Both the position numbers and the translations under genes were made by a program. A stretch of DNA of 64,000 nucleotides, taken from the NCBI GenBank assembly GCA_022072445.1, contig JAJVHV010000002.1:62001-126000 (forward strand). Direction: 5' to 3'. A model generated the notes under the pieces. The model made no database searches and was not told where the DNA came from. It worked only from the letters and a program-made list of their open reading frames with translations. The DNA is from Phycisphaerae bacterium (GTDB lineage Bacteria; Planctomycetota; Phycisphaerae; UBA1845; Fen-1342). Within the stretch, counting starts at the first letter, position 1. Each line of letters opens with the position of its first letter. Shown piece by piece: positions 6,826-63,769 of this stretch.

Positions 6826-9800
6826 CAATCGCAATCCCCGAACTCGCGCTCGTCGTCCTCGTCGGCCCCTCCGGCTCCGGCAAGTCGACCTTCGCGCGCA
6901 GGCACTTCAAGCCGACCGAGGTGCTCAGCAGCGACAACTGCCGGGCGCTGGTCAGCGATGACGAAAACGACCTGTCGGCCACCGGCGACGCCTTCGACAT
7001 CTTGCACTACGTCGCCGCCAAACGGCTCGCCGCCGGAAGGCTCACCGTCATCGACGCGACCAGCGTCAAGCCGGAGGACCGCAAGCCGCTGGTGCAGCTC
7101 GCACGCGACTATCACTGCCTGCCGGTCGCGATCGTGTTCGACGTCGGCGCTGGAATCTGCGCGGAGCGCAACGCCCAGCGGCAGGATCGGAGCAACCTGC
7201 GCAGCGAGTTGATTCGCAATCAGCAGAGCGCGATGCGGCGCGGACTTCGCTTCCTGCGTAAGGAGGGCTTTCGCCACGTCTACCGCCTTGAAACGCCAGA
7301 GGAGGTGGATGCGGCGATCATTCAGCGTGAGCCGCTGTGGAACAATCTCAGACATGACCACGGCCCGTTCGACATCATCGGCGACGTGCACGGCTGTTTT
7401 GACGAACTGGTGGAGCTGCTCGGGCGTTTGGGGTATGCGGTTGCAGAGAGACACGAAGCTGCGCAGCCACGCAGCCACGAAGAGAGCCACGAAGCCACGC
7501 AGCCACGAAGCCTCGGAGAGGGAGACGCGCCAACGGGAGCCGCAGTAGCGTCGGCCCTTCGTGGCCACGCGCCTTCGGCCCGCCCTGACGACGCACAAAC
7601 ACCGCCTGTAGCGTCGGCCCTCCGTGGCCACGCGCCTTCGGCCCGCCCTGACGACGCACAAACACCGCCTGTAGCGTCGGCCCTCCGTGGCCACGCCGGA
7701 TTTCACATCACGCCGCCGCCGGGACGCAAGGCGGTGTTTCTCGGCGATCTCGTCGACCGCGGCCCAGGAATTCCGCAGGTGCTGCGGCTTGTGATGAGCA
7801 TGGTCGCCGACGGCGTCGCGCTCTGCGTCCCGGGCAACCACGACGTCAAGCTGATGCGCAAGCTCCGCGGCAAGGACGTGCAGATCACGCACGGCCTGGC
7901 CGAGAGCCTCGCGCAGCTCGAGGCGGAGTCGCCCGAGTTCCGGCAGCAGGCGGCGGACTTCATCGACGAACTGGTCAGCCACTACGTCCTCGACGACGGC
8001 CGCCTCGTCGTCGCCCACGCCGGCATGAAAGCCGAGATGCAGGGCCGCGGCTCGGGAAAAGTGCGCGAGTTCGCGCTCTACGGCGAGACCACCGGCGAGA
8101 CCGACGAGTTCGGCCTGCCGGTCCGCTACAACTGGGCCGCCGAGTACCGCGGCCAGGCAACCGTTGTCTACGGCCACACGCCCGTGCCCGAGCCCGAATG
8201 GCTGAACCGTACAATCAACATCGACACGGGCTGCGTCTTCGGCGGACGGCTGACGGCGCTGCGCTATCCGGAGCTTGAGCGGGTGTCGGTCTCGGCGCGG
8301 CGCGTCTACGCCGAACCGCGGAAGCCGTTTCTTGGCCGCGAGTTCGGCACGCGCCGCGATGGAATCACGTATGCGCCCCGGACGGGTGCGTGTGCCGTGA
8401 TTCGCGCTGACGATGGGCGCGTCGCGATCATGCGGACGCCCATGGGGGATTTCCTGCCCGGCGGCGGCGCTGATCCCGGCGAGACGGCCGAACAGACGCT
8501 CCGCCGCGAAGTGCTCGAAGAGTGCGGCTGCGACGTGCGGATAGGGCGCGAGATAGGCCAGGCAGCGGAGTACGTCGATTCGCGCGACGCCGGTCCGGTC
8601 CGCAAGCAGATTGCGTTCTTTGAAGCCGCCCTGGGCGAGCGTATTCGGCAGCCATCCGAGCCCGATCATCAGCTCGTGTGGCTCGACGCGGTCGACGCCG
8701 CACGCGGCATGGCGCATGAATCTCACGCGTGGGCGATTCGCGAAGTGACGAATCCCGTCTCGCCCGTGCCGACCGGCGCATGCTCCAATGCCGGCCTCCC
8801 CGTCCAGCATGCCTACGACGACGTCTTGGACCTCGCCGACCTGCTTGGCAAGCGGATCATCTCCACGCGCCTGCACCGCAGCGTGATCATCAGTGCCGAG
8901 CGCGGCGCGGCGGCGCTCGAAGTCATGAGCCGCTTCGCCGCCAACCCCAAGTGGCTGATCTACCTCCCGCCCACGATGTCGCCGTGCGAGACCTCGCAGG
9001 AGCCCGATCGGCTGGAGCATCCGCGCGACGCGTTTGCCTACTACCGCGATCACGGCCAGCCGCGCGTCGTGTGCCAGGAGAAACACATGGGCTCGCGCGC
9101 CGTCGTGATCGTCTGCCGCCAGGCGAGCGTCGCGCGCCGCCGCTTCGGCGTCGTCGAAGACGGGCGCGGCATCGTCTACACGCGCACCGGCCGGCGCTTC
9201 TTCGACGACCCGGCGCATGAAACCGAGCTCCTGAACCGGGTCGACGCCGCGTTGATCGCGTCCGGACTTTGGGACGATTTGCAGACCGATTGGATCTGCC
9301 TCGACTGTGAGTTGATGCCCTGGTCGGCGAAAGCCAAAGCCCTCTTGCAGGAGCAGTACGCCGCCGTCGGTGCCGCGTCCCGCGCCGCGCTGGCCGACGC
9401 GGCGCTGCTGCTGGACCGCGCTCACGCAGGCGCCACCCCGCCAACCACCGAGCCGGTGCGCGGCCCGTGCCCCGACTCGGCGGGCCCCGCCGGCGCGAGT
9501 TCCGCTTGTCCCGGCCTGGCAGGTTCTGCGGGCGAAGCCCCGCCGGGCTCAGACCGGCCTGCCCCGTTGAGCGCTTTGAGGGATCGGATCCGCCAGCGCG
9601 CCCTGTTGGTCGACCGCTACGTCCTGGCTTACCAGCAGTACTGCTGGAGCGTCGCTTCGATCGCAGACCTGAAGGTCGCGCCATTTCACATCCTCGCGAC
9701 CGAGGGCCGCGTCTACGCCGACCGCGACCACGCCTGGCACATGAACACGCTCGCGCAGCTCTGTGCGGCGGGCGACGGCGTGCTGCTCGCGACGCCGTTC

Positions 9801-23739: not shown

Positions 23740-24115
23740 GCATGGCGCCGGTTTCCAACCCGCCCGCACAGGCTCTTTAGCTTGTGTGGCACAGGCTCTT
23801 TGGCTTGTGTGGCACAGGCTATCAGCCTGTGTGGACGGGTTTCCAACCCGAGGGTGGGGCGGGTTTCCAACCCGCCCGCACAGGCTCTTTAGCTTGTGTG
23901 GCACAGGCTCTTTAGCTTGTGTGGCACAGGCTCTTTGGCTTGTGTGGCACAGGCTATCAGCCTGTGTGGACGGGTTTCCAACCCGAGGGTGGGGCGGGTT
24001 TCCAACCCGCCCGCACAGGCTCTTTAGCTTGTGTGGCACAGGCTATCAGCCTGTGTGGACGGGTTTCCAGCACGAGGGTGGTGGTCGCAGACTGGACCCC
24101 CGCTTTCGCGGGTGT
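23740..24115. repeat. Nested tandem block of short palindromic repeats
   Basis: About 370 bases built from two kinds of unit: GCACAGGCTCTTTRGCTTGTG or GGCACAGGCTATCAGCCTGTG palindromes, and CGGGTTTCCAACCCG palindromes. A higher-order unit starts near 23750, 23867 and 24000. The palindrome with the ATC centre occurs at 23811-23834, 23946-23969 and 24035-24058. The last part, CGTCACACCCGCGAAAGCGG at about 24098-24119, is another common dispersed repeat. Spacer 1 of the CRISPR array resembles the ATC palindrome. Confidence 0.85.
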
Positions 24116-30160: not shown

Positions 30161-30915
30161 GCGGCGCTGGCCGGCGCGCGCGTTGGACGCGAGCGGCGCG
30201 CGTTGGACGCGAGCGGCGCGCGTTGGAACCGAGCGGCGCGCGTTGGAACGGAGCCGCGCGCGTTGGAACCGAGCTGCGGGCGTTGGAACCGAGCTGCGGG
30301 CGTTGGAACCGAGCTGCGGGCGTTGGAACCGAGCTGCGGGCGTTGGAACCGAGCCGCGGGCGTTGGAACCGAGCTGCGGGCGTTGGAACCGAGCCGCGCG
30401 CGTTGGAACCGAGCCGCGCGCGTCAGCAAGCGGTTTCCTGGCCAAGCCGGAGTGCGAGCGGCGGTCGAGGGATTCTCGCGCGGGGCTAAGAAACCGCTCC
30501 CTGACGGTCGCGGCTCGGATCGCGGTCGCGGCTCGGATCGCGGTCGCGGCGCTGGCCGGCGCGCGCGTTGGACGCGAGCGGCGCGCGTTGGAACCGAGCC
30601 GCGCGCGTCAGCAAGCGGATTCCTGGCCAAGCCGGAGTGCGAGCGGCGGTCGAGGGATTCTCGCGCGGGGCTAAGAAACCGCTCCCTTACGGTCGCGGCT
30701 CGGATCGCGGTCGCGGCTCGGATCGCGGTCGCGGCTCAGATCGCGGTCGCGGCGCTGGCCGGCGCGGGCGTTGGAACCGAGCTGCGGGCGTTGGAACCGA
30801 GCCGCGCGCGTCAGCAAGCGGTTTCCTGGCCAAGCGGGAGTGCGAGCGGCGGTCGAGGGTTCGCGCGCGGGGCTAAGAAACCGCTCCCTTACGGTCGCGG
30901 CTCTGGCAGGCGTCG
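30160..30915. repeat. GC-rich tandem repeats: 20-bp units and larger units
   Basis: Twelve 20-bp units of the type CGTTGGAACCGAGCTGCGGG fill 30181-30420. Because 20 is not a multiple of three, all frames stay open and give spurious long ORFs. From 30415 a larger unit of 155-200 bases (beginning CGTCAGCAAGCGGTTTCCTG, then GGCTAAGAAACCGCTCCCT and repeated TCGGATCGCGGTCGCGGC) occurs three times, the last ending near 30905. The CCGCTCCCTNACGGTCGCGG core also occurs in inverted orientation at about 39523-39545. The bases 30916-31038 hold nothing recognisable. Confidence 0.85.
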
Positions 30916-47644: not shown

Positions 47645-50600
47645 GTTTCAATCCGCGCCCCCGGACGGGGGGCGATCCAAGTGTGGCGCAGGCTATCAGC
47701 CTGTGCGCGAGTTTCAATCCGCGCCCCCGGGCGGGGGGCGATAGCGGGGCCACACCAGCGCGTGCCGCACGGCCGGAGGTTTCAATCCGCGCCCCCGGGC
47801 GGGGGGCGATCTTGAACAGGGCGGCGACACCGACGTAGCCGAACTGTTTCAATCCGCGCCCCCGGGCGGGGGGCGATGCCGCACCATCCGCTACAGCCGG
47901 CGTGGAACTGAGGTTTCAATCCGCGCCCCCGGGCGGTGGGCGATCGCGCGTCTCGGCGGCGTTGACGGCCTGCAGCGAGTTTCAATCCGCGCCCCCGGGC
48001 GGGGGGCGATGCCTGTGTGTCACACGGGGTGCCGCCATGTTCCTGTTTCAATCCGCGCCCCCGGGCGGGGGGCGATGCGGCCGACGAGCTGCACGCCGTT
48101 GGCGCAATCGGCGTTTCAATCCGCGCCCCCGGGCGGGGGGCGATGTGCCGGGCCGGTCCTTTCTTCGCTGGTTTTTCTAGTTTCAATCCGCGCCCCCGGG
48201 CGGGGGGCGATTTTTGCCACACGCGTGCGGGCTGCCGTCGGCACTGTTTCAATCCGCGCCCCCGGGCGGGGGGCGATAGCCAGCGCGAGCAAGGGCGGCT
48301 CTATGCGCGGCTGTTTCAATCCGCGCCCCCGGGCGGGGGGCGATGGGACGCATGGGCGATATCTGCGAAAACGGCAGCGGTTTCAATCCGCGCCCCCGGG
48401 CGGGGGGCGATCATTCGTACATGCGAATTGCCGCAATGCATCGTTCGTTTCAATCCGCGCCCCCGGGCGGGGGGCGATGACGCGGATCGCGCGCCAGGCG
48501 GGCGTGCCGCTCGTTTCAATCCGCGCCCCCGGGCGGGGGGCGATCACCTGACTCGACACGACTCGACCCGACGCGACGTGTTTCAATCCGCGCCCCCGGG
48601 CGGGGGGCGATATGTTGTGGATGAATCCTGCACGCCCGCGGTCGGTGTTTCAATCCGCGCCCCCGGGCGGGGGGCGATGGAGCAGCAACAGCGCCGCTTG
48701 ATTGCGAAATGGTTTCAATCCGCGCCCCCGGGCGGGGGGCGATCGCGATATGCGATTGAGTGGCACACGAACAAGCTGTTTCAATCCGCGCCCCCGGGCG
48801 GGGGGCGATGGTTCCGGGTTTGATGGGCAATGCAGGAGCGGGAAGGTTTCAATCCGCGCCCCCGGGCGGGGGGCGATGTCGAGGCCCGGCGGCACGTGCA
48901 GGCCCTGTTCGCGTTTCAATCCGCGCCCCCGGGCGGGGGGCGATCGGTTGACCCGGACTACGACGCCCAACTGGTGAGCGTTTCAATCCGCGCCCCCGGG
49001 CGGGGGGCGATATCCCTGAGCACAAGGACAAGAACATGAGCAGGGCAGTTTCAATCCGCGCCCCCGGGCGGGGGGCGATGACAATTCAGCCATCGTTGCC
49101 GCAATCTCGCAGAGTTTCAATCCGCGCCCCCGGGCGGGGGGCGATGCTCAGGCTCTGGGTTTGACGGATACGCGCTCTAGTTTCAATCCGCGCCCCCGGG
49201 CGGGGGGCGATGCTGCTGCGCGGCCTGACGCGCGAGACGCGCATCCAGTTTCAATCCGCGCCCCCGGGCGGGGGGCGATCTCGCTACTCAGGCTGGGTAT
49301 CTGTATCAGTTACGGTTTCAATCCGCGCCCCCGGGCGGGGGGCGATGCCGATCGCAATCATGGTCTCGCGCGGCACGCCGAAGTTTCAATCCGCGCCCCC
49401 GGGCGGGGGGCGATGCCGCGCCCGCTTCACGCGCAGTGATCCATAATGTTTCAATCCGCGCCCCCGGGCGGGGGGCGATGCGAGAATCCGCCGGCGTTGA
49501 CCGGAATGACGGCGTTTCAATCCGCGCCCCCGGGCGGGGGGCGATCTTAACTACATAGATCAAAACCCACAGCAAACAGTGTTTCAATCCGCGCCCCCGG
49601 GCGGGGGGCGATGAATGGCTGCGGGACACGGCCCTCTAAAACCACAGTTTCAATCCGCGCCCCCGGGCGGGGGGCGATCCTAACTAGGTGCGGGGATTTC
49701 TTTTTGTCGGTGTTTCAATCCGCGCCCCCGGGCGGGGGGCGATCTACCCGCTGAAGATCGCGAGCATAGGGCGGGTCCAGTTTCAATCCGCGCCCCCGGG
49801 CGGGGGGCGATACGAGGGCGAGCACGACATGCCGGCGGATTGGGTTTCAATCCGCGCCCCCGGGCGGGGGGCGATTACGAGGGCGAGCACGACATGCCGG
49901 CGGATTGGGTTTCAATCCGCGCCCCCGGGCGGGGGGCGGTATAGCGACGTGTTCGCGAATCCCTTGGCCAGCGGGAGTTTCAATCCGCGCCCCCGGGCGG
50001 GGGGCGATGCAGACGCCGCCGCGCATGAGGACAGTTGGAGTCCGTTTCAATCCGCGCCCCCGGGCGGGGGGCGATGTGGTGAGCGCGTCGGCCGAGCCGG
50101 ACCAGCCGCGGTTTCAATCCGCGCCCCCGGGCGGGGGGCGATTGTGGAGCCAAGTGCAGGATGGCGACGTGTTCGCGTTTCAATCCGCGCCCCCGGGCGG
50201 GGGGCGATGTGGTGAGCGCGTCGGCCGAGCCGGACCAGCCGCGGTTTCAATCCGCGCCCCCGGGCGGGGGGCGATTGTGGAGCCAAGTGCAGGATGGCGA
50301 CGTGTTCGCGTTTCAATCCGCGCCCCCGGGCGGGGGGCGATCCCGGTACGTTCATCGCCGCCGCGAGCGTCACGCGTTTCAATCCGCGCCCCCGGGCGGG
50401 GGGCGATGGCAACCCCTTCTTCGCCGCGCCGCCATCGGCCCCGTTTCAATCCGCGCCCCCGGGCGGGGGGCGATCGCGGTCATGCGGCTCAGAACTCACG
50501 GACGCGGTGTTTCAATCCGCGCCCCCGGGCGGGGGGCGATGTGATGCAATCTGTTTGGGCGATGAACGGGAGGGAGTTTCAATCCGCGCCCCCGGGCGGG

Positions 50601-53600
50601 GGGCGATGCCGTGCGTCGACGTTGAGTTCCTCTTGAGATTGGGTTTCAATCCGCGCCCCCGGGCGGGGGGCGATGAGAAATCACGGATTCCATGCTCGTA
50701 GGCGATTTCGTTTCAATCCGCGCCCCCGGGCGGGGGGCGATGCCAAGCCCCAGCGCAGCGCGTCCTCGCGCGTGCTGTTTCAATCCGCGCCCCCGGGCGG
50801 GGGGCGATCAGGAACTCGTCGCCGTAGCGCTCGCGGACCAGCTCGTTTCAATCCGCGCCCCCGGGCGGGGGGCGATGTCGTAGACCGTCTCCTGCCGCGT
50901 CGCATAATTGTTTCAATCCGCGCCCCCGGGCGGGGGGCGATGCTGAGGTGGTGGAGGCCCGCGCGCGTCTGATCGTTTCAATCCGCGCCCCCGGGCGGGG
51001 GGCGATGTGGTGATCGGATTTGCCGAGCCCTCCCACCGCCTGTTTCAATCCGCGCCCCCGGGCGGGGGGCGATGTCGCGGGCCTGATCCAGCCCGCGGCG
51101 CTGCAAACCGTTTCAATCCGCGCCCCCGGGTGGGGGGCGATGGCGCGGCTGGGCGCTGCCCAGGAGCCGGGCAACGTTTCAATCCGCGCCCCCGGGCGGG
51201 GGGCGATGTTCAGCTCACCAAAGCGAGGGGTTTGTGGGCATGTTTCAATCCGCGCCCCCGGGCGGGGGGCGATACGGCCTATGCGAGCAACACGCGCGAG
51301 CGCGGTCTGTTTCAATCCGCGCCCCCGGGCGGGGGGCGATGCTTCGACGCGCTGGTCTTCCCCGAGCCGGCGATGTTTCAATCCGCGCCCCCGGGCGGGG
51401 GGCGATCTCTTTCATCTGCTCTAGTGCCAGGTGATATTCGTTTCAATCCGCGCCCCCGGGCGGGGGGCGATCGCATCAATTGCTGCTGGGACAAATCACC
51501 CACTTCGTTTCAATCCGCGCCCCCGGGCGGGGGGCGATTTCGTCCTCCTCCGCCCAAAGGTCCGTGTTGGTGTTTCAATCCGCGCCCCCGGGCGGGGGGC
51601 GATGCCAGCACGACCTTGCACTGTGCAGGGTACAGGTTGTTTCAATCCGCGCCCCCGGGCGGGGGGCGATTGCGGGCGAGATCGGGCGTGACACAAGCCT
51701 AACTGTTTCAATCCGCGCCCCCGGGCGGGGGGCGATCCAGCACGACCTTGCACTGTGCAGGATACAAATTGTTTCAATCCGCGCCCCCGGGCGGGGGGCG
51801 ATAGCGCTGCCCGAGATGTAATCACCCGTGCCAATGTTTCAATCCGCGCCCCCGGGCGGGGGGCGATAGCAGCGGGGACATGAGAGCCGCTTTACCAAGG
51901 CGTTTCAATCCGCGCCCCCGGGCGGGGGGCGATGCCCGTGCTGATGTTCGGATAGCCAAGCATCTCTAGTTTCAATCCGCGCCCCCGGGCGGGGGGCGAT
52001 CCTCAAGGCGTGCGTCAACGCGGTCCTCACCCTCATGTTTCAATCCGCGCCCCCGGACGGGGGGCGATCCGACAGCGCTACTCGGCCTGTCGGGATCATT
52101 CCGAGTTTCAATCCGCGCCCCCGGGCGGGGGGCGATGCCGCGGTCTCGTAAATTCCGGCTGGCATCATCGGTTTCAATCCGCGCCCCCGGGCGGGGGGCG
52201 ATGATCCGCGTGATCGACGAGGGCGTGATTCCGGGCCTGTTTCAATCCGCGCCCCCGGGCGGGGGGCGATCTGGGCAGGCCGTGCCACACCTGGGGCGGG
52301 TCCAGTTTCAATCCGCGCCCCCGGGCGGGGGGCGATCAACTTCGACCCGACCGCCAGCGGCGTCGACTAGTTTCAATCCGCGCCCCCGGGCGGGGGGCGA
52401 TGATACCGTCACGGTGAGCATCGGCAGGCCCGGATAGTTTCAATCCGCGCCCCCGGGCGGGGGGCGATTCGGGGAATGGGGTGGGGGTGGAGTGCGCGCG
52501 AGAGTTTCAATCCGCGCCCCCGGGCGGGGGGCGATCCTCCCCACGCCACGTATGAAACCGGCTCGTTCGTTTCAATCCGCGCCCCCGGGCGGGGGGCGAT
52601 GCGGCGGCTGTTCGCGCTGCTCTACCCGAAGGCGGTTTCAATCCGCGCCCCCGGGCGGGGGGCGATCGCTGCTGCGCGCTGCCACGGTCGTCATGTACAC
52701 GTTTCAATCCGCGCCCCCGGGCGGGGGGCGATGGATTACCTGGGGCCGGTCGAATCCGGCTGGATCGTTTCAATCCGCGCCCCCGGGCGGGGGGCGATAG
52801 TCTGACCACGCTCGTGACGCACTCGGCGGCGTGGTTTCAATCTGCGCCCCCGGGCGGGGGGCGATAGCGGAGCTCGTGCGCTCTCAGGCGGCAGTCCCTG
52901 TTTCAATCCGCGCCCCCGGGCGGGGGGCGATGGAGCCGCTTGCCTCGCCGATGATGGTGCCTTTGTTTCAATCCGCGCCCCCGGGCGGGGGGCGATGTGG
53001 GAGTCGAGTAAAGAAGACTCTTCGTACGGAGTTTCAATCCGCGCCCCCGGGCGGGGGGCGATCAAGGCCAAGGTGGAGGCGGGAATAGCGATTCTCGTTT
53101 CAATCCGCGCCCCCGGGCGGGGGGCGATACCTGGCATTCGACGCCGACGTGCCGGCCGAGCAGTTTCAATCCGCGCCCCCGGGCGGGGGGCGATGGGCGC
53201 GACACGGATCGTCGCGCCGCCCCCGTCAAGGTTTCAATCCGCGCCCCCGGGCGGGGGGCGATCGTGGTGATCGCCGACCCATTGCTGATTGGCGCGTTTC
53301 AATCCGCGCCCCCGGGCGGGGGGCGATTTTGGCCGCGATCTGGCCGAGATCATTGCCGCTCGCGTTTCAATCCGCGCCCCCGGGCGGGGGGCGATTACCC
53401 GTGCCGCCGTACAATCCATCGATCGTCTGCGTTTCAATCCGCGCCCCCGGGCGGGGGGCGATCGTCCGCGAGGCCCAGGCTGACGGCATCGGAACCGTTT
53501 CAATCCGCGCCCCCGGGCGGGGGGCGATCGGCGTCGCCCTGGGCGGTGTGACCGTTGCCGTTCGTTTCAATCCGCGCCCCCGGGCGGGGGGCGATGATCG

Positions 53601-56600
53601 CCGACCGTGGCGCGCTCACACGCGTCGAGTTTCAATCCGCGCCCCCGGGCGGGGGGCGATGGTATGGCAGCCTCAAGACCATCACGCTGCCCCTGTTTCA
53701 ATCCGCGCCCCCGGGCGGGGGGCGATGGCCGGCGATGACGCACGATGATCTGGCGACTTGGTTTCAATCCGCGCCCCCGGGCGGGGGGCGATGATTGCGG
53801 CGTTCATTGTCCACGGCCGCTTTCGACGTTTCAATCCGCGCCCCCGGGCGGGGGGCGATGCCGGATCGTTTGCAACCGGCGGCAAGGGAAAGGGTTTCAA
53901 TCCGCGCCCCCGGGCGGGGGGCGATCCTGACGGCGGGGGATTGGGGATCGGGGATTCGGGTTTCAATCCGCGCCCCCGGGCGGGGGGCGATATGAGGCTC
54001 GCCGGAATCCGCCGGCGGTAAACTCGTTTCAATCCGCGCCCCCGGGCGGGGGGCGATGTCCATTGCATCATCGTCGGCGGGCTCGTCAACTGTTTCAATC
54101 CGCGCCCCCGGGCGGGGGGCGATCGGCTGGCAGCCGCGAATCTCGTTTGTGGATCAGGTTTCAATCCGCGCCCCCGGGCGGGGGGCGATGACGCCGCGAA
54201 TCCCGTCCGTCGGCGTGTACGCGTTTCAATCCGCGCCCCCGGGCGGGGGGCGATCGCGGCTGCTTCCGCCGCAGTGAGGCGATGATCGGTTTCAATCCGC
54301 GCCCCCGGGCGGGGGGCGATCGAGCGGTCGCATAGGTCGGCGGACTCTCAAACTGTTTCAATCCGCGCCCCCGGGCGGGGGGCGATGGTCCGGTCCGTCG
54401 GACAAGTCGGAGTACTCGTAGTTTCAATCCGCGCCCCCGGGCGGGGGGCGATGCGATCCACAAATTCATCCGAGCACCAGTCATCTTGTTTCAATCCGCG
54501 CCCCCGGGCGGGGGGCGATCATCGACGATCCCGACGGATTCATCACCGCCTTTGTTTCAATCCGCGCCCCCGGGCGGGGGGCGATCTGCTCCGTCAGCAA
54601 GCCGGCGTGCTTGAGCCAGTTTCAATCCGCGCCCCCGGGCGGGGGGCGATACGCGTGGCCGCCAATCGTGGCGAGCGCATTGGCGTTTCAATCCGCGCCC
54701 CCGGGCGGGGGGCGATTTCCGGGTTTGATGGGCAATGCAGGTGGGTGAAGGTTTCAATCCGCGCCCCCGGGCGGGGGGCGATCCACCACGTCGCGCCGCA
54801 CCAGCAGCCCGACGCGTTTCAATCCGCGCCCCCGGGCGGGGGGCGATGGGGCCGGCCGAGTTTTCCTCGAGACGGTGAACGCGTTTCAATCCGCGCCCCC
54901 GGGCGGGGGGCGATCGCGCTGGACGTGCATCGGCTGCGGGCGATCGAGTTTCAATCCGCGCCCCCGGGCGGGGGGCGATCCGTCCACGTTCGATGACGTA
55001 AGGATCCCGTGCAGTTTCAATCCGCGCCCCCGGGCGGGGGGCGATACCGCGCAGGCAGTGCTCGCGACGAATACGGCGCTGTTTCAATCCGCGCCCCCGG
55101 GCGGGGGGCGATTTTTCCACGTTGCAGGCGCAACTGTTGCTCGGCGGGTTTCAATCCGCGCCCCCGGGCGGGGGGCGATCGGATTGGGAATGCCTGCGAT
55201 GGAAGGCTCATGGCGGTTTCAATCCGCGCCCCCGGGCGGGGGGCGATGGGCGGCGGCGTGTGCCAGTGCCACGCCGCGCTAGGTTTCAATCCGCGCCCCC
55301 GGGCGGGGGGCGATACACGCCGCAATAGCCGTCCAGCGTCAAGCCGATGTTTCAATCCGCGCCCCCGGGCGGGGGGCGATGCCCTTGGTTCCGACCCGAT
55401 CGACAAGCGCCGCGAGTTTCAATCCGCGCCCCCGGGCGGGGGGCGATGCGGGCAACGTCGTCTACATTTTCCTCGATCAGTGGTTTCAATCCGCGCCCCC
55501 GGGCGGGGGGCGATCTGTGCCCCACGCCTCCGCGGCGTAGCACCGAGAGTTTCAATCCGCGCCCCCGGGCGGGGGGCGATGTCAAAAGCGGCCGTGGACA
55601 ATGAACGCCGCAACCGTTTCAATCCGCGCCCCCGGGCGGGGGGCGATCATTCCCATCCTCGTCCGCGCATCCGCAAGCGATAGTTTCAATCCGCGCCCCC
55701 GGGCGGGGGGCGATCCGCTCTGCATCGCCACTCGGCAGGACCCGGATAGTTTCAATCCGCGCCCCCGGGCGGGGGGCGATGTCGAGTTCCGTTTGAGGTT
55801 TGGTACGTCCCTCACGTTTCAATCCGCGCCCCCGGGCGGGGGGCGATCGCGACACAGCCTCTCGTCCGATTGCAGCAGCGTGTTTCAATCCGCGCCCCCG
55901 GGCGGGGGGCGATGCCCGTGCGCTGTCAGGATGCAGTGCCGAGAAATCGTTTCAATCCGCGCCCCCGGGCGGGGGGCGATCTCTGATGCCATGAACATCC
56001 CAACCAACATACCGTTTCAATCCGCGCCCCCGGGCGGGGGGCGATGGCGCTGCGCCCCCCCCTCCCCGCGGTCACTCTAGTTTCAATCCGCGCCCCCGGG
56101 CGGGGGGCGATCTTCTACCGCTTCAACGACGGAGCGGCTGAAGCGTTTCAATCCGCGCCCCCGGGCGGGGGGCGATGGCAGTCGCCGGCCCGCACGACCA
56201 CGCGGGTTTCACTGTTTCAATCCGCGCCCCCGGGCGGGGGGCGATGCTGCAAGTCGATCCTGTCCGCGTGCTGCTCGAGTTTCAATCCGCGCCCCCGGGC
56301 GGGGGGCGATGGCCGGTACCGAAGATCACGACGCACTCGCCCTTGTTTCAATCCGCGCCCCCGGGCGGGGGGCGATTCGGCTGCATCTCCTCGGCCTGCT
56401 GCCGCGTGCTGTTTCAATCCGCGCCCCCGGGCGGGGGGCGATCGACCAACGCCGAGGACGCGGCGCTGGAGTGGGACGTTTCAATCCGCGCCCCCGGGCG
56501 GGGGGCGATGGCACAGTGCAGCGTGTTGTCGCTGAGGCGGATGTTTCAATCCGCGCCCCCGGGCGGGGGGCGATGGAGCGCATCTTGAATGCCTGGCTGG

Positions 56601-57497
56601 TCCGGCTTGTTTCAATCCGCGCCCCCGGGCGGGGGGCGATAGCGACCCCTGACGCGCGTCCACGTCGTTCGTACTGTTTCAATCCGCGCCCCCGGGCGGG
56701 GGGCGATGCGGGCTCGCCGTGTTGCCGAGGATGACTCCGGCGTTTCAATCCGCGCCCCCGGGCGGGGGGCGATAACAGAGGTTGTGTTTTCAAATCACAG
56801 GGCACTCGTTTCAATCCGCGCCCCCGGGCGGGGGGCGATAAGGCTTCCTGGCTCTCTACACGTCGCGTCCGATGTTTCAATCCGCGCCCCCGGGCGGGGG
56901 GCGATGTTGGGGCGTCGGGCAGGGCGTCGAGCCCGACCTGTTTCAATCCGCGCCCCCGGGCGGGGGGCGATCCACCCACTCGCTCAGCGGATAGGCGTCG
57001 GCTTGTTTCAATCCGCGCCCCCGGGCGGGGGGCGATGGAGCGGCGTTACGGCGAACATGAATTCAGCGGAGTTTCAATCCGCGCCCCCGGGCGGGGGGCG
57101 ATGTACTGCTCGGTCACCATCTGCTTTTCCTTTCAGTTTCAATCCGCGCCCCCGGGCGGGGGGCGATGGTGCGGGCGGCCGGCCGATGCGGTGCGCGTTC
57201 AGTTTCAATCCGCGCCCCCGGGCGGGGGGCGATGTGGCATATGGGCGGCATTCAGCGGCAAGTAGAGGTTTCAATCCGCGCCCCCGGGCGGGGGGCGATG
57301 CCGCATAGAGCGCATATGCCCTTGTCGCGCCGCCGTTTCAATCCGCGCCCCCGGGCGGGGGGCGATCGATGACCTTCGAAATCGGCACTATCTGCGACGC
57401 GTTTCAATCCGCGCCCCCGGGCGGGGGGCGATCCCGACGGGGCGAGCATCCATTGCTGCAAGTGTGTTTCAATCCGCGCCCCCGGGCGGGGGGCGAT
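47645..57497 (-). CRISPR. Type I-C CRISPR array, 149 repeats and 148 spacers
   Basis: Repeats of 32 bases (plus strand GTTTCAATCC... ending GGGGGGCGAT) recur every 64-69 bases. My hand count gives 149 repeats; spacers are mostly 33-36 bases. On the minus strand each repeat ends GGATTGAAAC, the type I-C form, and contains a GC hairpin; the array is transcribed leftwards, away from cas2. Leader-distal repeat 1 (47645-47676) carries an A in the GC core. Other variants: 47913 (T in the G-run), 49909 (GCGGT end), 51110 (GGGTGGGG), 52037 (same A as repeat 1) and 52834 (TCTGCG). No gene or insertion sequence interrupts it. Spacer duplications and diverged pairs are given as findings. Confidence 0.98.
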
Positions 57498-57683
57498 GGT
57501 GTTTACATAACGTCTGCCGCTACCTTCGTCGAGAACAGTGAATCCGCGAACCACGGCGTGGGTGTGGCCGCGGTTCGCGGTCGCAACAACAGCAAATCCT
57601 CTATCCGATTGTCAAAGAACCAGTTACGAGAATCGCGGACCGAGCCGGGTTTCGCCCCTCGCTCACGGTTCGCGATACTCCGC
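57498..57683 (-). promoter_or_regulatory. CRISPR leader between cas2 and the first repeat
   Basis: 186 bases, read leftwards into the array. On the minus strand there is TTGACA (57615-57610), a possible -35 box, without a strong -10 box at 16-18 bases. GGTTCGCG or its complement occurs three times: an inverted pair at 57545-57552 and 57572-57579, and a third copy at 57667-57674. The leader ends GTAAACACC against the first repeat. Such inverted motifs near the leader end of type I arrays help direct spacer insertion; that role here is inference. Confidence 0.7.
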
Positions 57684-57974
57684 TCAGACAATGAGCGGCT
57701 CATCCAAGCCGGTGCTGGTTTCGATCCCGTAGTGCTCGACTCGCCGCTGCCAGTTCTTTCCCAGAAAATAAAAGCGAAGGCTGTCCTGAGCGGGCTCGAT
57801 GAGCGCAAGCAGCCGGTGCCTGAGTTCGGCGAAGCGCGCCGGATCGACCTGACACTCGAAGACCGAGTTCTGCGCGCGCTGACCATAGTCGAGACAAGCC
57901 TTCGCAACCAAGTGCAGCCGCCGCCGGCCGGCTTTGGTCGTGGTGGAAACGTCATAGGTGACCAGTACCATCAT
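57684..57974 (-). CDS. cas2: CRISPR-associated protein Cas2
   Basis: 96 codons. MVLVTYDVSTT at the start (Asp8) and the compact ferredoxin-like pattern with QNSVFECQVDPARFAELR match Cas2, the structural partner of Cas1 in spacer integration. It lies 32 bases after cas1 and 186 bases before the array, the usual last cas gene of a type I-C locus. Confidence 0.95.
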   Translation of the reverse strand: MMVLVTYDVSTTTKAGRRRLHLVAKACLDYGQRAQNSVFECQVDPARFAELRHRLLALIEPAQDSLRFYFLGKNWQRRVEHYGIETSTGLDEPLIV

Positions 57975-58006: not shown

Positions 58007-59038
58007 CTATTTCATGATGAATGCGGGATAGGCATCCAAGTCACCGCGCAGATAGCGCGCCAGCAGCCGCGCCTGTAGGTGGATCAACAGCCCAATCGTG
58101 GTCGTCTCGCCGAGAAACGGATGCTCGACGGTGTCCTGCTTGCGCTTCTGATATGCGACTAGGACCGCCTTTCGCGTAGCTTCATCCATCGCGACGCCGC
58201 CGGCCTCCTCGACGCGAAAGCCGGGCGCCTGAACCTGTCGTCGATTGATCAAGGACAAAACGAGCCGATCCACAAGAAACGCACGAAGCTCTTCCATGAG
58301 GTCGAGGGCGAGTCCGGGCCGACCCGGGCGATCCTCGTGAAGGAACCCGACCGCCGCGTCGAGCCCCGCCGCTTCGCATGCTGCGCGGGCGTCGTGCGCC
58401 AGAATGGCATAGAGAAACGAGAGCAGCGCGTTTACCCGGTCCATCGGCGGCCGGCGCGTGCGTCCGTTCAAGACGAACTCCTTGCTCTGAGCCGTGATCA
58501 TGGCGTTGAACGCGGCAAAGTACGACTTGGCCGCGTCACCCTCGAATCCGCGGAGCACTTCGAGATTCTCGCACCGCCGCACATCATCGAGCGTCGCCAG
58601 CAGGCGGGCCGAGGCGCGGTCGAGCAGCTCCCGGCCAGGAACATCCGGATGGTCGCGGGCGGCGCGGAGCATCACCGTCCGCGCGTTGGCGATCTTGGCC
58701 AGCACAATCGGCCTGGCAATCCGCAGTGCCTGCGCCACACTGTCGGCGCGGCGGTACTGCTCGCGGCGGAGGACCACATTTCCGGGAGTGAAGCCGGTTG
58801 TTGCGGCGATGAAACGGCCCTGCTCGGTCAGAAACGAAACCGCGACGCCGGCCTGCGCGCAGGCGCCGAGCAGGGCCGGGCTGAAGCCGATGGCGCCGAA
58901 AGTGACGACGCCGCCAAGATTGTGCAACGGAACGCGGAGCTTGGTCTGGTTCTGGACACGCACGGCGATCGTCTGTCCGTCCTTGCGCAGGAAGGCCCGC
59001 GGCGTCGTGACAAAGAGGGTGTTGAGGTGTTGCTTCAT
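58007..59038 (-). CDS. cas1: CRISPR-associated endonuclease Cas1 (subtype I-C)
   Basis: 343 codons from ATG 59038; its first bases overlap the cas4 stop (ATGA). TPRAFLRKDGQTIAV starts the beta-strand domain, and the helical domain has the metal ligands Glu166 (RGFEGDAA), His234 (GFLHEDRPGRPGLALDL) and an acid at Asp246 or Glu249. It is the integrase that inserts spacers at the leader-repeat junction. All expected residues are present. Confidence 0.96.
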   Translation of the reverse strand: MKQHLNTLFVTTPRAFLRKDGQTIAVRVQNQTKLRVPLHNLGGVVTFGAIGFSPALLGACAQAGVAVSFLTEQGRFIAATTGFTPGNVVLRREQYRRADSVAQALRIARPIVLAKIANARTVMLRAARDHPDVPGRELLDRASARLLATLDDVRRCENLEVLRGFEGDAAKSYFAAFNAMITAQSKEFVLNGRTRRPPMDRVNALLSFLYAILAHDARAACEAAGLDAAVGFLHEDRPGRPGLALDLMEELRAFLVDRLVLSLINRRQVQAPGFRVEEAGGVAMDEATRKAVLVAYQKRKQDTVEHPFLGETTTIGLLIHLQARLLARYLRGDLDAYPAFIMK

Positions 59039-59778
59039 CGATTGGGCTTCCCTGAAGCGGAGTCGGCCGCCGCATCCGCCAGCGCGCGGTCGAGATAGCG
59101 CGAGGCGGCTCGCGGCGAGGCGGGTACGTCCGGCAGGCAGAGGTGTATGAGCGAGCAGCGCTCGCACTTCGCCTTGTCGTAAACTGCCCGTGGCGAGCGA
59201 CGGCTGGCGATGAGCTCGTGCAGCCGCGACGCGGCCTGTTCAGTCGACTGCCGCAACGCCGTATCGAACACGACGCTCTCCCTGTGGCGCGTGCGGCCGT
59301 AGAAGAGCGCCCCGGCCGGCACCGCGACGTGCAGCGATTCCTCCAGGCAAAGCGCTTGCGCACAGAGCTGTACGCGGTCGGCGTCATGTTTCTTCGGCCG
59401 ACCACGTTTGTATTCGACCGGGAATGGCAGCGCGACGCTGTTCGTGCGATCGGCACCCGCGGCGGCGTTTCCGACGACAGCTTGCTCGTGGAATTCAACC
59501 ACATCCGCGACGCCGAATAGCCCCAACGTGAGGCTGCGCAGATGCATGCCGCGCACGATGTGCACTTCCGTGCCATGGCTGTTGCGGCGAGCCCCGTCCA
59601 AGCCGCCGCCGCGCGGGCCGGCGCGCTGGCCGTGGGCTTTCTCGTGCAGATGGCGTCCTTCGATGGTCAGGCGATTCTCGACCCAGAGGCGCTCGATGTG
59701 AATGAGCGCGCATTGCCGCTCGCAGAAGAGCAGGTGTTGCAGGGCGGAGATGGGCAATAGGTCGGATTCGGAGTACAT
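59035..59778 (-). CDS. cas4: CRISPR-associated exonuclease Cas4
   Basis: 247 codons from the second ATG (59778), which has GAGGG seven bases upstream. It carries one N-terminal iron-sulfur Cys (LLFCERQC), RecB-type nuclease motifs GVADVVEF and PVEYKRGRPKKHDADRVQL (Asp, Glu, Lys) and three C-terminal cysteines in KCERCSLIHLC. Cas4 trims prespacers and selects those with the correct PAM and orientation. It is coupled to cas1 by overlap. Confidence 0.94.
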   Translation of the reverse strand: MYSESDLLPISALQHLLFCERQCALIHIERLWVENRLTIEGRHLHEKAHGQRAGPRGGGLDGARRNSHGTEVHIVRGMHLRSLTLGLFGVADVVEFHEQAVVGNAAAGADRTNSVALPFPVEYKRGRPKKHDADRVQLCAQALCLEESLHVAVPAGALFYGRTRHRESVVFDTALRQSTEQAASRLHELIASRRSPRAVYDKAKCERCSLIHLCLPDVPASPRAASRYLDRALADAAADSASGKPNR

Positions 59779-59855
59779 GGCCATCCCTCAACCCAGTCGG
59801 CCTTCCTCACAGCACTCTCGGGCAGAAGGCCGACGATTCGACCGCCGAAGTGCAA

Positions 59856-60836
59856 CTACAGCTTGCCCATGTCGCGCGGCAATTCCAGCAACTCGACGCC
59901 GTTGGGGACGTTGTCGCGCACAATCTCGATGCGGCCAGGCCAATAGTCGGACCAGCGGCGTGGCGCGCCGTCGGTGCCGAACTGCGTGATCTTCACGACA
60001 TCCTCGAACAGCACCTGTGCCGGGCAGCAGCCGAGCATGGCCTGTCGCGTGCGCTGTTCGGGATCGCTGTCGGTGCCGACGTGCTTGAAGACGTAGATCG
60101 GCTGGCGCACCGTCATGACGCCCTTGCTGGCCGAGCGATCGTGCTCGTACATGTTGAGGACGGCCTCGAAGAGCAGCTTGAGGTCGTCCTTCGAGAAGCC
60201 AGTCTGCTGTGCCAAGTGGGCGCTGATGAAGCCCTTGCCGACGAAGAGGCCGTACGGGATGAGCGACTTGCGGCCCATCGTGCGGAGCTTGTCCTCGGGT
60301 TGCTCGGCTTCCCACTTTTCGTAGTCTGCCGCGCCCTTCGCGCCCTTGATCTCCTCGGCCACCGCCATGCGAGTGATCGACAGGTCCAGCGGAAGGATGG
60401 CATCGATTGAGCGCGCAAAGGCGATCTGCACCGGTCCGCGCACCTGCCCCGCATTCGGTCCGGTGGACATCACGGCCCCGAACGTGCGGACGTCGTAGAA
60501 GTTCTCGCACATCCAACGACGGGCCTTCTCAACCTGGTCCTTGTTGGCGCCCTTGTCTCCCTGCGGGACGCCGCCGGTCTTCTCATGCGCCCGTGTGATC
60601 TCCGTGTTCAGATTCGAGGCGTGCTCGACGAAGATCGCGTTCGGCATCTTGTTCCCGCGCGCTGCCTGTACGTAGTTGCGAATGCGGCGCTTGATCGCGA
60701 CATCCGAGACCAGTCCGCGCATGTCCTGCGGATCGATGCGTGGCGAGTTGCCGGCGTCGGGATCGCCGTTGGGGTTGCCGTTTTCGCAGTCGAACAGAAA
60801 GAGGAATTCGTAACGATTACTGATGACCGTTGACAT
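59856..60836 (-). CDS. cas7c: Type I-C Cascade backbone protein Cas7c (Csd2)
   Basis: 326 codons from ATG 60836 (AAAGGA upstream). [20 protein letters not shown] and [20 protein letters not shown] are diagnostic of Csd2. Several copies coat the crRNA in the type I-C interference complex. It follows cas8c after 40 bases and precedes cas4 by 77 bases. Confidence 0.95.
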
Positions 60837-60876
60837 GATTGCGTTCGTCCTTTCCACATCGATGTTTGGTTTCGTT

Positions 60877-61263
60877 TCAAGCTGACATCGAGTTGTCGTC
60901 GGCGGAGCCGCCCCGCGCCGCCAATTGGTGGTAGTAGCCCATCGCGAAGAGCGTCTGCTCTTCGAGCGTAAGCGTCTTGGGCGGCGCCGCGCGCATCTGC
61001 TGCCACACTCCGGCGAGCTGCTGCTGGAACCAGTGCGCGAGTCCGGGCCTGTCCTTTCGGATCGTGGGTATGTGCGCGATTTCGGACAGTCGGACGAGGC
61101 GACCCAGATGCAGCGCGGGACAAATGCTGGTCGCGGCGTAGCAACGTTCGACCACTCCCGCGTCGACATTCGGGAGCGCCGTACGCTGGATGCGCGCGAC
61201 GAGCGCCATGACTCGACCCGAGAGATAGGCCGGGTGGGCGAGTGAATCTAGCTTCTCGGACAC
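60877..61263 (-). CDS. cas11c: Small subunit Cas11c from internal start within cas8c
   Basis: In frame with cas8c, a GTG at 61263-61261 (codon 467) is preceded six bases upstream by AAAGGAG at 61276-61270, a strong ribosome site inside a coding region. The product would be 128 residues, [20 protein letters not shown] onward, all helical. Internal translation of Cas11c from cas8c is established for type I-C systems; this site is the obvious candidate here. Confidence 0.75.
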
Positions 61264-62661
61264 GTGAATCTCCTTTCGACCCAGGTATGCGCGCAACAGG
61301 CCATACTGCGCGTGGCGGGGCGTTTGACCGGTAGTTACGTCCAGGCGCGCCCGCGCGAGCGCGCGGGCCGCAATGTCTGCGGGGATTGGCGTTCCTGTCA
61401 GCGCCGCGTGCCAAAGCGCGTTCACGGCAGGAGGGGTGAGCTCGTCCAGGTCACGCACGGTCGCCGCCAGAACCGCCAGGAACTTGGGATCCGGCGCCGT
61501 CCCGTCGCCGCCACGAGCGACGATGCGTAGATCGCTGAACCACTGATCCACAGTTCGCGCCAACTGCTCGAACGATCCTTCCATCCAGTCTCGCACGACG
61601 ACGCGCGCCGAGTTGCCGGACATCGTCATCGCGTTGAAGCGCAGGGTAGCAAGATCAGCGCGCTGGCCGGTCCGGATTGCCTCCAGCAGGTCGCGAGCGA
61701 GGTGGAGCGCCTGCGTCTCTCCCCGTCGGTCGGTTGTGGACCCGTGCTGCTCATCGTCGTCTCGCGACGACGTCACTCCGGCGCCGCGAAGCAGAAGCTG
61801 GACCGGATCCTCTTCCGGGCTCACCTCATGCTTCCGGCCGATGAACCAGTAGATCACCTTCGTTCCGGCCAGTGTGACGCTCCGGTGCTCGATCAGGTCG
61901 TTCAGCGCCGCCGCGTACTGCTCGGCCGGCTCCTTACCGACCGCCGCATTGCGCGACTGCTCAAGTCCGTACGAACAGAAGGCGTCCTGATTGAACCCGA
62001 TCAGCGTTGTCTCCACCTTGCCGCCGACGCCGCCCAGTCCCTTGATCTTCGGGTGTGTCCGCGCCGGTTCGAGCAACTCGCCCGTCAGCAGGCAGGGAGT
62101 CGGCTCGGCGGGCTCGTCATCGCTCTTGAAGAGCGTCGGGAAGTAGCCGCGCCACCACTCGTGCCAGCCATCGTCCTCGACCAGGATTTGCGGCTCGCCC
62201 TCGTCAATCACCGCGAAGGTCACGTTTTCTGACGGCTTGGCCGGCTTCGAATGCGATGCCAGATCAGCGCACACCTTCTCACGCGTTTCGGTGTCCGAGA
62301 GCGCATTGAAGAGCATTCGAAACCGGCGATCCGCCTCGCCGGCCTCGTTCAGCAACCGGAGGAAGTACTCGTGCTTGGCGCGCAGCTTCTTATCCGACTT
62401 GTCGGCCTCGTACAGCAGCGCATACTCCGCGGTGTCGATCAAGAATTGCCGCATCGGCGTATCACCGGAGAATTTCAGGTGCGGCGCCTTGGCGAACGTC
62501 CGGCCCTTGCTGCCTCTCGTGTTGGGGTCGGTCAGGTCCAGCACGTTCAGGAAGCGCCCCTTGGCGTTGAACACGACCAGCCAGCGGACCGTCTTGCGGG
62601 TGAAGCCGGCTTCGGCGTCCAGACCCTTGCGCCGCGCATATTGAACCAATGCGTGCAACAT
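60877..62661 (-). CDS. cas8c: Type I-C large subunit Cas8c (Csd1)
   Basis: 594 codons. The start [40 protein letters not shown], the [10 protein letters not shown] region and the C-terminal helical part agree with Csd1. It recognises the PAM and opens the target in the interference complex. Its ATG shares one base with the cas5c stop (TGATG). The last 128 codons also encode the small subunit from an internal start. Confidence 0.95.
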
Positions 62662-63371
62662 CAGCCGGCCCTCCGCGCGGGTTTGCGCACTTCCTTGCTC
62701 TCGTACGCCGGAAAATTCAGCACACCGCTGCGGATCACCGCGTGAAACAGGCTGATAGACGGCTGGTCGTTGCTGCCGCCCGGCCGCGACAGGTCGAACA
62801 CGTCGTAGACCATGAAGCCGACATCCTGATCCAGCGGCACAGGCGGCTTCTCCCGCTGTTCGCGTTCGACGTCTTCGACCAGGCGAAAGAACGCGACGAA
62901 CTCGCGGCAGCCCAGGTACGGCTGCTGGAAGCACTTCCCCTGCGATGCGCGCCGGCGAAACTGTTCGTCGAACGCCGTCTGCTGGCGCTCGAAGCCAGGC
63001 CAGGGTACGATGCGGGCGTGAATGCGATAGCGCGGATTGCGGATCGCCATCGTCTGCCGCTGCTGGCGTGTGCCGCTGTCGTCGGCCATCAGGGCGACCG
63101 CCTGGGCGCCCTTGATCCACTTGCCGATGTTGGTCACGCTGGCCACGTCGCCCACCTCGTTGCGGCGCAGCGCGATGTACGTCGGCATCGCCAGCAATTC
63201 GACCCGCGTGACCTGCCAGCGGAATTCGGGCGGATGACAGTAGATTGCGTCGAGCAGGCCGCGGGCGCCGCTGTGCGGCGGAATTTGGAAGGACCAGCGC
63301 TCGACCTTGAGCTCCGGTCGGCTATAGCACGCGAAATCGCCCCATACCTCGATGACGTGTGTCGTGCTCAT
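62661..63371 (-). CDS. cas5c: Type I-C crRNA endonuclease Cas5c
   Basis: 236 codons from ATG 63371 with AAGGAGA upstream. HVIEVWGDFACYSRPELKVE and HPPEFRWQVTRVELL are typical of Cas5 of subtype I-C (Cas5d). In this subtype Cas5 replaces Cas6 and cuts the repeat hairpin, leaving an 11-base 5' handle ending TTGAAAC. The start overlaps the stop of a small upstream ORF (ATGA). Confidence 0.95.
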   Translation of the reverse strand: MSTTHVIEVWGDFACYSRPELKVERWSFQIPPHSGARGLLDAIYCHPPEFRWQVTRVELLAMPTYIALRRNEVGDVASVTNIGKWIKGAQAVALMADDSGTRQQRQTMAIRNPRYRIHARIVPWPGFERQQTAFDEQFRRRASQGKCFQQPYLGCREFVAFFRLVEDVEREQREKPPVPLDQDVGFMVYDVFDLSRPGGSNDQPSISLFHAVIRSGVLNFPAYESKEVRKPARRAG

Positions 63372-63592
63372 GGCTTGCTCTCCTTGTGTCGCGCTCCGAC
63401 CCAGCCGCGCTTGCGCGCGCTGAGGAAGCAGTGCCAACTCTGATCCTTGCGCAGCGGGCCGACCGTGGCGCTGAGTTGCTCGTGCAAGAGGTCGAACGCG
63501 GGCGTGTACGGGAGCCGATCGAGCGGAGGTGCGGTTCTCGCCAGTTCGGCGGCGGTCCTGAGCTGCCGGGCGGTGGGCTTCCAGTTCTTCAC
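63368..63592 (-). CDS. Small unknown protein coupled to cas5c
   Basis: 74 codons from a GTG at 63592, chosen because AGGAG lies nine bases upstream; an ATG at 63661 would overlap the promoter. The sequence KNWKPTARQLRTAAELARTA then LDRLPYTPAFDLLHEQLSA and WHCFLSARKRGWVG is mostly helical and basic. It does not match any Cas protein I know. The stop overlaps the cas5c start (ATGA), so it is translated first in the cas operon. It could be a regulator, a structural accessory of the complex, or an unrelated passenger. Confidence 0.6.
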   Translation of the reverse strand: MKNWKPTARQLRTAAELARTAPPLDRLPYTPAFDLLHEQLSATVGPLRKDQSWHCFLSARKRGWVGARHKESKP

Positions 63593-63614
63593 TGCGGCTT
63601 TCTCCTGATCGGTT

Positions 63615-63748
63615 TGACAGCCACAGTACCAAATGATAAAGTATGACGATGCCGCAGTCAAGGCTCTCCACCGCTTTCGCGTGTGTTTTTTGCGTCAATG
63701 TCGCCTTCGCTCCAGAAGGCGGGGCTTGAAACGGTACTGTGGCTGTCA
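63615..63748. promoter_or_regulatory. 16-bp inverted repeat flanking the cas operon promoter
   Basis: TGACAGCCACAGTACC at 63615-63630 recurs as its exact reverse complement at 63733-63748. Centres are 118 bases apart. The proximal arm covers the expected transcription start; the distal arm lies about 110 bases upstream. This may be an operator pair, or the arms of an RNA hairpin in transcripts reading through from cas3. Confidence 0.6.
63633..63661 (-). promoter_or_regulatory. Sigma-70 promoter of the cas5-cas8-cas7-cas4-cas1-cas2 operon
   Basis: On the minus strand TTGACT (63661-63656), a 17-base spacer and TATCAT (63638-63633). The expected start lies near 63626, 34 bases before the GTG of the small ORF. 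It separates transcription of the later cas genes from cas3. One arm of a 16-bp inverted repeat covers the start site. Confidence 0.65.
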
Positions 63749-63769
63749 CTTAACGCGTGCGGAGCACCG

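Follow-up and report, generated by a model that had tools for sequence, protein, structure and literature searches.

Near-identical spacers in a Phycisphaerae type I-C CRISPR array probably record two samplings of a changed target

Spacers 18 and 107 share a PAM-side end

In the 64,000-nucleotide stretch of a Phycisphaerae bacterium genome analysed here (the window; GenBank assembly GCA_022072445.1, contig JAJVHV010000002.1, positions 62,001 to 126,000 of the forward strand), a type I-C array of clustered regularly interspaced short palindromic repeats (CRISPR) contains two spacers, 18 and 107, that are identical at 31 of 34 aligned bases and are separated by 89 spacers. One type I-C system probably acquired the two spacers on separate occasions from a single site, anchored at a protospacer adjacent motif (PAM), in a target, viral or of another kind, that differed at three bases from one encounter to the next.

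The array occupies positions 47645..57497 on the minus strand and was parsed into 149 repeats of 32 nt, six of them with one base changed, and 148 spacers of 32-37 nt. Counted in plus-strand order, the numbering of the two spacers in an earlier note on this DNA (18 and 107) and their separation there (89 spacers) were exact. On the minus strand the repeat terminates in ATTGAAAC, and the array lies downstream of cas1 as in type I-C; in related loci retrieved by Cas1 the array likewise starts about 500 bases past Cas1, with the same layout. Because of this repeat end and the position of the array after Cas1 in related loci, spacer addition was assigned to the 57.5-kb end. The leader is thus at the high-coordinate end, which makes spacer 107 (54717..54750, minus strand, 34 nt, 42nd from the leader) the newer member and spacer 18 (48810..48845, minus strand, 36 nt, 131st from the leader) the older one.

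On the plus strand the two are identical over 25 consecutive bases, TTCCGGG through GCAGG, after which three of the last nine bases differ and both spacers finish in AAG. The note had described this pattern correctly, as a shared stretch through GCAGG with a few changes near the end. Since the array is read on the minus strand, "near the end" is in fact where the spacer begins, on its PAM-proximal side; in the reading direction the differences fall at positions 5, 7 and 9 from the common PAM-side end. The probability that all three would lie within the first nine of 34 positions is 84/5984 = 0.014.

Chance and copying within the array

An all-against-all comparison of the spacers on both strands gave six related pairs with scores of 25-35, while every remaining pair scored 13 or less. 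Three of the six are local duplications (33/34, 37/39 and 38/40) and three are variant pairs (18/107, 60/62 and 93/120). Given the base composition of the spacers, 2.4e-9 chance pairs as similar as 18/107 are expected, and chance is excluded as the origin of the likeness.

A copy of one spacer made by recombination inside the array and mutated afterwards would also give two similar spacers, and units of CRISPR arrays do get duplicated, as the exact copies 33/34, 37/39 and 38/40 and 15 exact pairs inside multi-unit blocks over all surveyed arrays show. These known duplications are unchanged, however: the three local ones hold zero base differences, and adjacent same-end pairs over all arrays were exact in 25 of 25 cases, so copies within an array stay identical and variant pairs must have another origin. 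Spacers 18 and 107 moreover differ in length by 2 nt, and their neighbours are unlike each other and absent from the related pairs; none of the 37 variant pairs of the survey described below (0/37) had a similar neighbour in register. The repeats carry six changes in 149 x 32 bases, a rate at which at least three changes in 2 x 34 bases have a probability of 9.8e-5. Mutation of the array would also show no preference for the PAM-proximal half of the spacer. Copying within the array is thus a very improbable source of the pair.

Two separate samplings therefore remain the best-supported part of the note's proposal that one locus was sampled twice, probably from related phages, in view of the common PAM-side end, the unequal lengths, the unrelated neighbours and the low mutation rate of the array. 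That the targets were related phages is inferred. The check proposed in the note, whether the later phage carries mutations against the earlier spacer, was addressed indirectly, through where the differences fall.

Differences between same-end spacers are concentrated near the PAM

The type I effector reads PAM-proximal bases first. An element altered in or near the seed, through an escape mutation or as a related element differing there, would on its return be poorly matched by the older spacer 18 and would survive. A second sampling at the same PAM, perhaps through primed acquisition, could then follow, with spacer 107 worth keeping and so retained; the array would in this way record the target both before and after it changed. 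Such a seed mechanism predicts that differences between resampled spacers in other arrays beside I-C-type Cas1 are also biased towards the PAM.

We compared spacers within arrays in two collections of loci. The first comprised 80 loci found with a Cas1 profile (960 spacers), in which variant pairs looked PAM-proximal too. The second comprised 120 regions from Cas1 matches with E <= 1e-80 in 34, 297, 394 and 393 genomes; these were 120 of 158 Cas1 places, the rest being mostly near a contig end or already sampled. After removal of duplicates the sets held 148 spacers in the window, 809 in 49 discovery arrays and 3915 in 96 replication arrays. Locus L094 was replaced by the longer L147, with the L094 pair 121/131 kept in discovery, and L124 and L138 were added by hand. 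Pairs had to lie on the same strand with the same end, 1-7 differences and an overlap of at least 32. This cut was written after the pair list had been seen, and the direction of the bias and the prominence of position 9 had been noticed in discovery before the replication loci were collected. We dropped pairs containing N, those that were offset or on opposite strands, pairs with at least 8 differences, further pairs sharing a counted member and mutually duplicate arrays (8), and left out two small arrays lacking a clear I-C repeat end (the second array of L080, and L087). Survey arrays were assigned by their Cas1 match and not by the effector, and a few have 37-nt repeats.

In discovery, with the window included, seven pairs with 28 differences had a mean relative position of 0.316 from the PAM-side end (two-sided permutation p = 0.00075). 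Replication gave 30 pairs in 14 arrays, whose 77 differences had a mean of 0.342 (p = 5e-5); 53 of the 77 lay within positions 1-17, and 23 pairs were proximal against 7 distal (sign test p = 0.0052). All sets together contained 37 pairs in 18 arrays, with 74 of 105 differences within positions 1-17 and counts of 35, 39, 17 and 14 at positions 1-8, 9-17, 18-26 and 27-36. Planted random changes were recovered without bias (2996/3000 kept, mean 0.4994). Resampling of arrays gave 95% intervals of 0.29-0.41 for the 18 arrays and 0.30-0.41 for the 14 replication arrays. The bias persisted without arrays L147, L128 and L184 (21 pairs, mean 0.371, p = 0.0024) and had the same direction under other pair cuts; with one value per array over all arrays it was weaker (14 to 4, p = 0.031). 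In the 10 offset or opposite-strand pairs the mean was 0.463 for the older and 0.427 for the newer spacer, a weak contrast at n = 10. A cross-array control, meant to separate a bias of sites from one of memory, found no pairs to work on: among 4857 spacers, 0 same-end near-duplicates joined different arrays.

Position 9, just outside the textbook seed, was the commonest site of difference, with 13 observed against 3.1 expected in the 37 pairs and 7 against 2.28 in replication alone (p = 0.009). Position 6 was low, with one difference, and multiples of six together had 9 against 15.6 expected.

The resampling could be real but neutral, with the PAM acting as a hot spot, target diversity existing beforehand and the positions of the differences meaning nothing. 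Exact resampling over long distances does occur, in 19 same-end duplicate pairs more than 10 spacers apart, nine of them of unequal length, and the first-nine placement in 18/107 is weak when taken alone. The PAM-proximal bias in the 37 pairs, and again in replication by itself, speaks against neutrality, which we consider unlikely.

Several results nevertheless weigh against renewal of memory against a changed target. Since the exact long-distance duplicates exist, resampling needs no mismatch. With one value per array, replication alone gave 11 to 3 (p = 0.057), and without positions 1-2 it was weaker (p = 0.012; sign test 17 to 8, p = 0.11). The bias reaches as far as about position 17, past an 8-nt seed. 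The three changes in 18/107 are not silent in any of the six frames, and neither spacer has a protospacer among the sequences searched (below), so divergence of the target was not seen directly.

Coding constraint was tried as further support and dropped. Pairs 60/62, 93/120 and L062 15/44 are fully silent in one frame, but there were six frames to pick from, and silent changes over nine pairs were no more frequent than expected by chance (Fisher p = 0.55). With this null unbeaten, the argument from coding constraint adds nothing. Codon phase was flat across the full set of differences (34, 35 and 36).

Protospacer searches and the contig L242

The note had proposed to locate both protospacers, and this search was negative in IMG/VR contigs, GenBank phages, the bacterium's own genome and 392 genomes of the phylum. 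The IMG/VR scans used the exact 23-mer core, three wobble patterns, three 18-mers and one motif pattern. In GenBank phages, blastn queries with spacer 18 and with the array up to its base 7996 (the last 1857 being left out) matched only weak fragments and, in Pseudomonas phages, repeat-like sequence; the protospacer search with the array covered phages and not plasmids. Among the 392 genomes there was one match with three mismatches, in one other genome, which we took as chance.

An 18-base core of spacers 18 and 107 matched one IMG/VR contig, L242, across 22 bases. By eye L242 appears to be a phage, with tape-measure-like, protease-like and capsid-like genes, and the match lies in a glycosyltransferase-like gene whose Pfam matches are below cut-off. 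L242 is not the protospacer of 18/107. Since an 18-mer scan for another spacer turned up a match of similar length, 20 nt, L242 is a lead and no more.

In the L242 frame the two spacers translate as FPLLHCPSNPE and FTHLHCPSNPE and L242 itself as WKFLHCPSNPK, so that LHCPSNP is common to both spacers and the differing residues are directly outside it. Motifs of this type are presumably common in glycosyltransferase-like enzymes. In the collected loci a motif scan found one long frame only, in L242, and in the genomes of the order the motif pattern matched the array alone. The L242 protein had no relatives in phages, plasmids or 114 genomes of the order, no PHROG, and no PDB relative with E below 0.1.

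The two spacers could stem from one element that carries two paralogous sites, or from a pair of elements with a common conserved motif, instead of one drifting site. The 22-nt match in a glycosyltransferase-like gene fits this, as does the shared LHCPSNP with the differing residues just outside. On the other hand, the 25 consecutive identical bases also cover silent positions, which is beyond what a protein motif needs, and the L242 match may itself be chance, given the comparable 20-nt match elsewhere. We regard an origin from paralogues or a shared motif as improbable.

What the pairs may tell about escape

If the pair does reflect resampling of a changed site, it would be a clean natural case of immune memory renewed against a changed target. 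More generally, it seems to us an even call whether long arrays form a target-free record of escape, in which I-C resampling pairs differ mainly PAM-proximally, notably at position 9, so that the natural strength and reach of seed escape could be read from arrays alone where the viruses of a host are unknown. Spacer-to-spacer comparison within arrays would then show where mismatches matter without any virus sequence, and could gauge the natural reach of the effective seed. Natural escape could thereby be tested in bacteria that have not been cultured, this planctomycete lineage among them, and in any CRISPR subtype with long arrays.

The cas operon and other features of the arrays

The array is preceded by a minus-strand operon of cas5c, cas8c, cas7, cas4, cas1 and cas2. 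Cas5c (62661..63749, TIGR01876), cas8c/csd1 (60877..63120, TIGR01863) and the type I-C cas7/csd2 (59856..61169, TIGR02589) are given as listed open reading frames whose real starts are probably further in. They are followed by cas4 (59035..59784, TIGR00372), the type I-C cas1 (58007..59167, TIGR03640) and cas2 (57684..57974, TIGR01573, E 9.7e-17). The I-C-specific models TIGR03640, TIGR01876, TIGR02589 and TIGR01863 all scored above cut-off at the locus, and cas4 and cas2 adjoin cas1 and the leader, which is the type I-C layout. From this gene order the leader region is placed at 57498..57683 on the minus strand, between cas2 and the first (newest) repeat. The nearest Cas1 relatives are in the majority Phycisphaerae and other Planctomycetota records.

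The other two variant pairs of the array are also on the minus strand. Spacers 60 (51604..51638, older) and 62 (51737..51770, newer) differ at positions 3, 4 and 9. Spacers 93 (53793..53827, older) and 120 (55581..55615, newer) are from opposite strands, with full overlap and two differences. Further opposite-strand pairs with an offset of 0 or 1 were found in L193 (idx 52/59 and 111/227) and L122 (idx 29/36); with their full or near-full overlap, such pairs look like one site integrated once in each orientation.

Spacers 33/34 (49812-49940) are one sequence twice in succession, with lengths 1 nt apart, and are followed by a variant repeat at 49909-49940. At 50076-50309 there is an exact two-unit block duplication, in which spacers 37-38 equal 39-40. 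An exact eight-unit block is duplicated in L147 (219-226 = 227-234), which is among the very long arrays of the survey: 288 spacers were parsed in L147, 290 in L128, 260 in L193 and 218 in L199. Resampling was unusually dense in L060, a 3.1-kb planctomycete contig with three variant pairs (4/12, 8/14 and 9/16) in 16 spacers.

The oldest spacer, spacer 1 (47677-47710), resembles the dispersed palindrome GCACAGGCTATCAGCCTGTG (see window 23766-24058) and matches its copy at 23803 at 26 of 34 bases. The palindrome occurs at 35 places in the genome with at most one mismatch, spacer 1 itself counted, and spacer 1 is possibly an old self-derived spacer. Elsewhere in the window, at 30176-30903, tandem repeats are nested with units of 18, 20, 185 and 203 bases.

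Comparison with known systems

The closest parallel is the type I-C system of Legionella pneumophila Toronto-2005, for which PMC5071653 describes two spacer pairs against LME-1, the older members mismatched in the PAM or seed and the newer ones matching perfectly; its authors read this as natural priming by escape mutants. The subtype is the same, and the two spacers there fall on overlapping sites, as is proposed for 18/107. In Legionella, however, the target element is known and there are two pairs, whereas here the evidence comes from the array and a 37-pair survey. Measured against the seed given in that paper (positions 1-5, 7 and 8), two of the three 18/107 differences fall inside it, in a comparison made spacer to spacer.

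For SIRV viruses of Sulfolobus islandicus, PMC6452263 reports mismatches between spacer and protospacer enriched in the first five bases and read as escape, which was not the case for SSV. Mismatches are commoner near the PAM in both studies, but that work compares spacers with virus genomes, whereas the present test is spacer against spacer and virus-free. In type I-C Pseudomonas aeruginosa, with PAM TTC, PMC7913775 places escape changes at +2 and +3. The subtype is again the same; those changes arose beside the PAM under laboratory selection, in contrast to the bias reaching about position 17 here.

A within-array spacer-to-spacer statistic over many arrays was not met in the open-access papers searched, the review PMC8047081 included; subscription papers were mostly outside this scope and we make no claim of priority. 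The pair 18/107 is a fresh example of a published phenomenon, accompanied here by a broader, target-free statistic.

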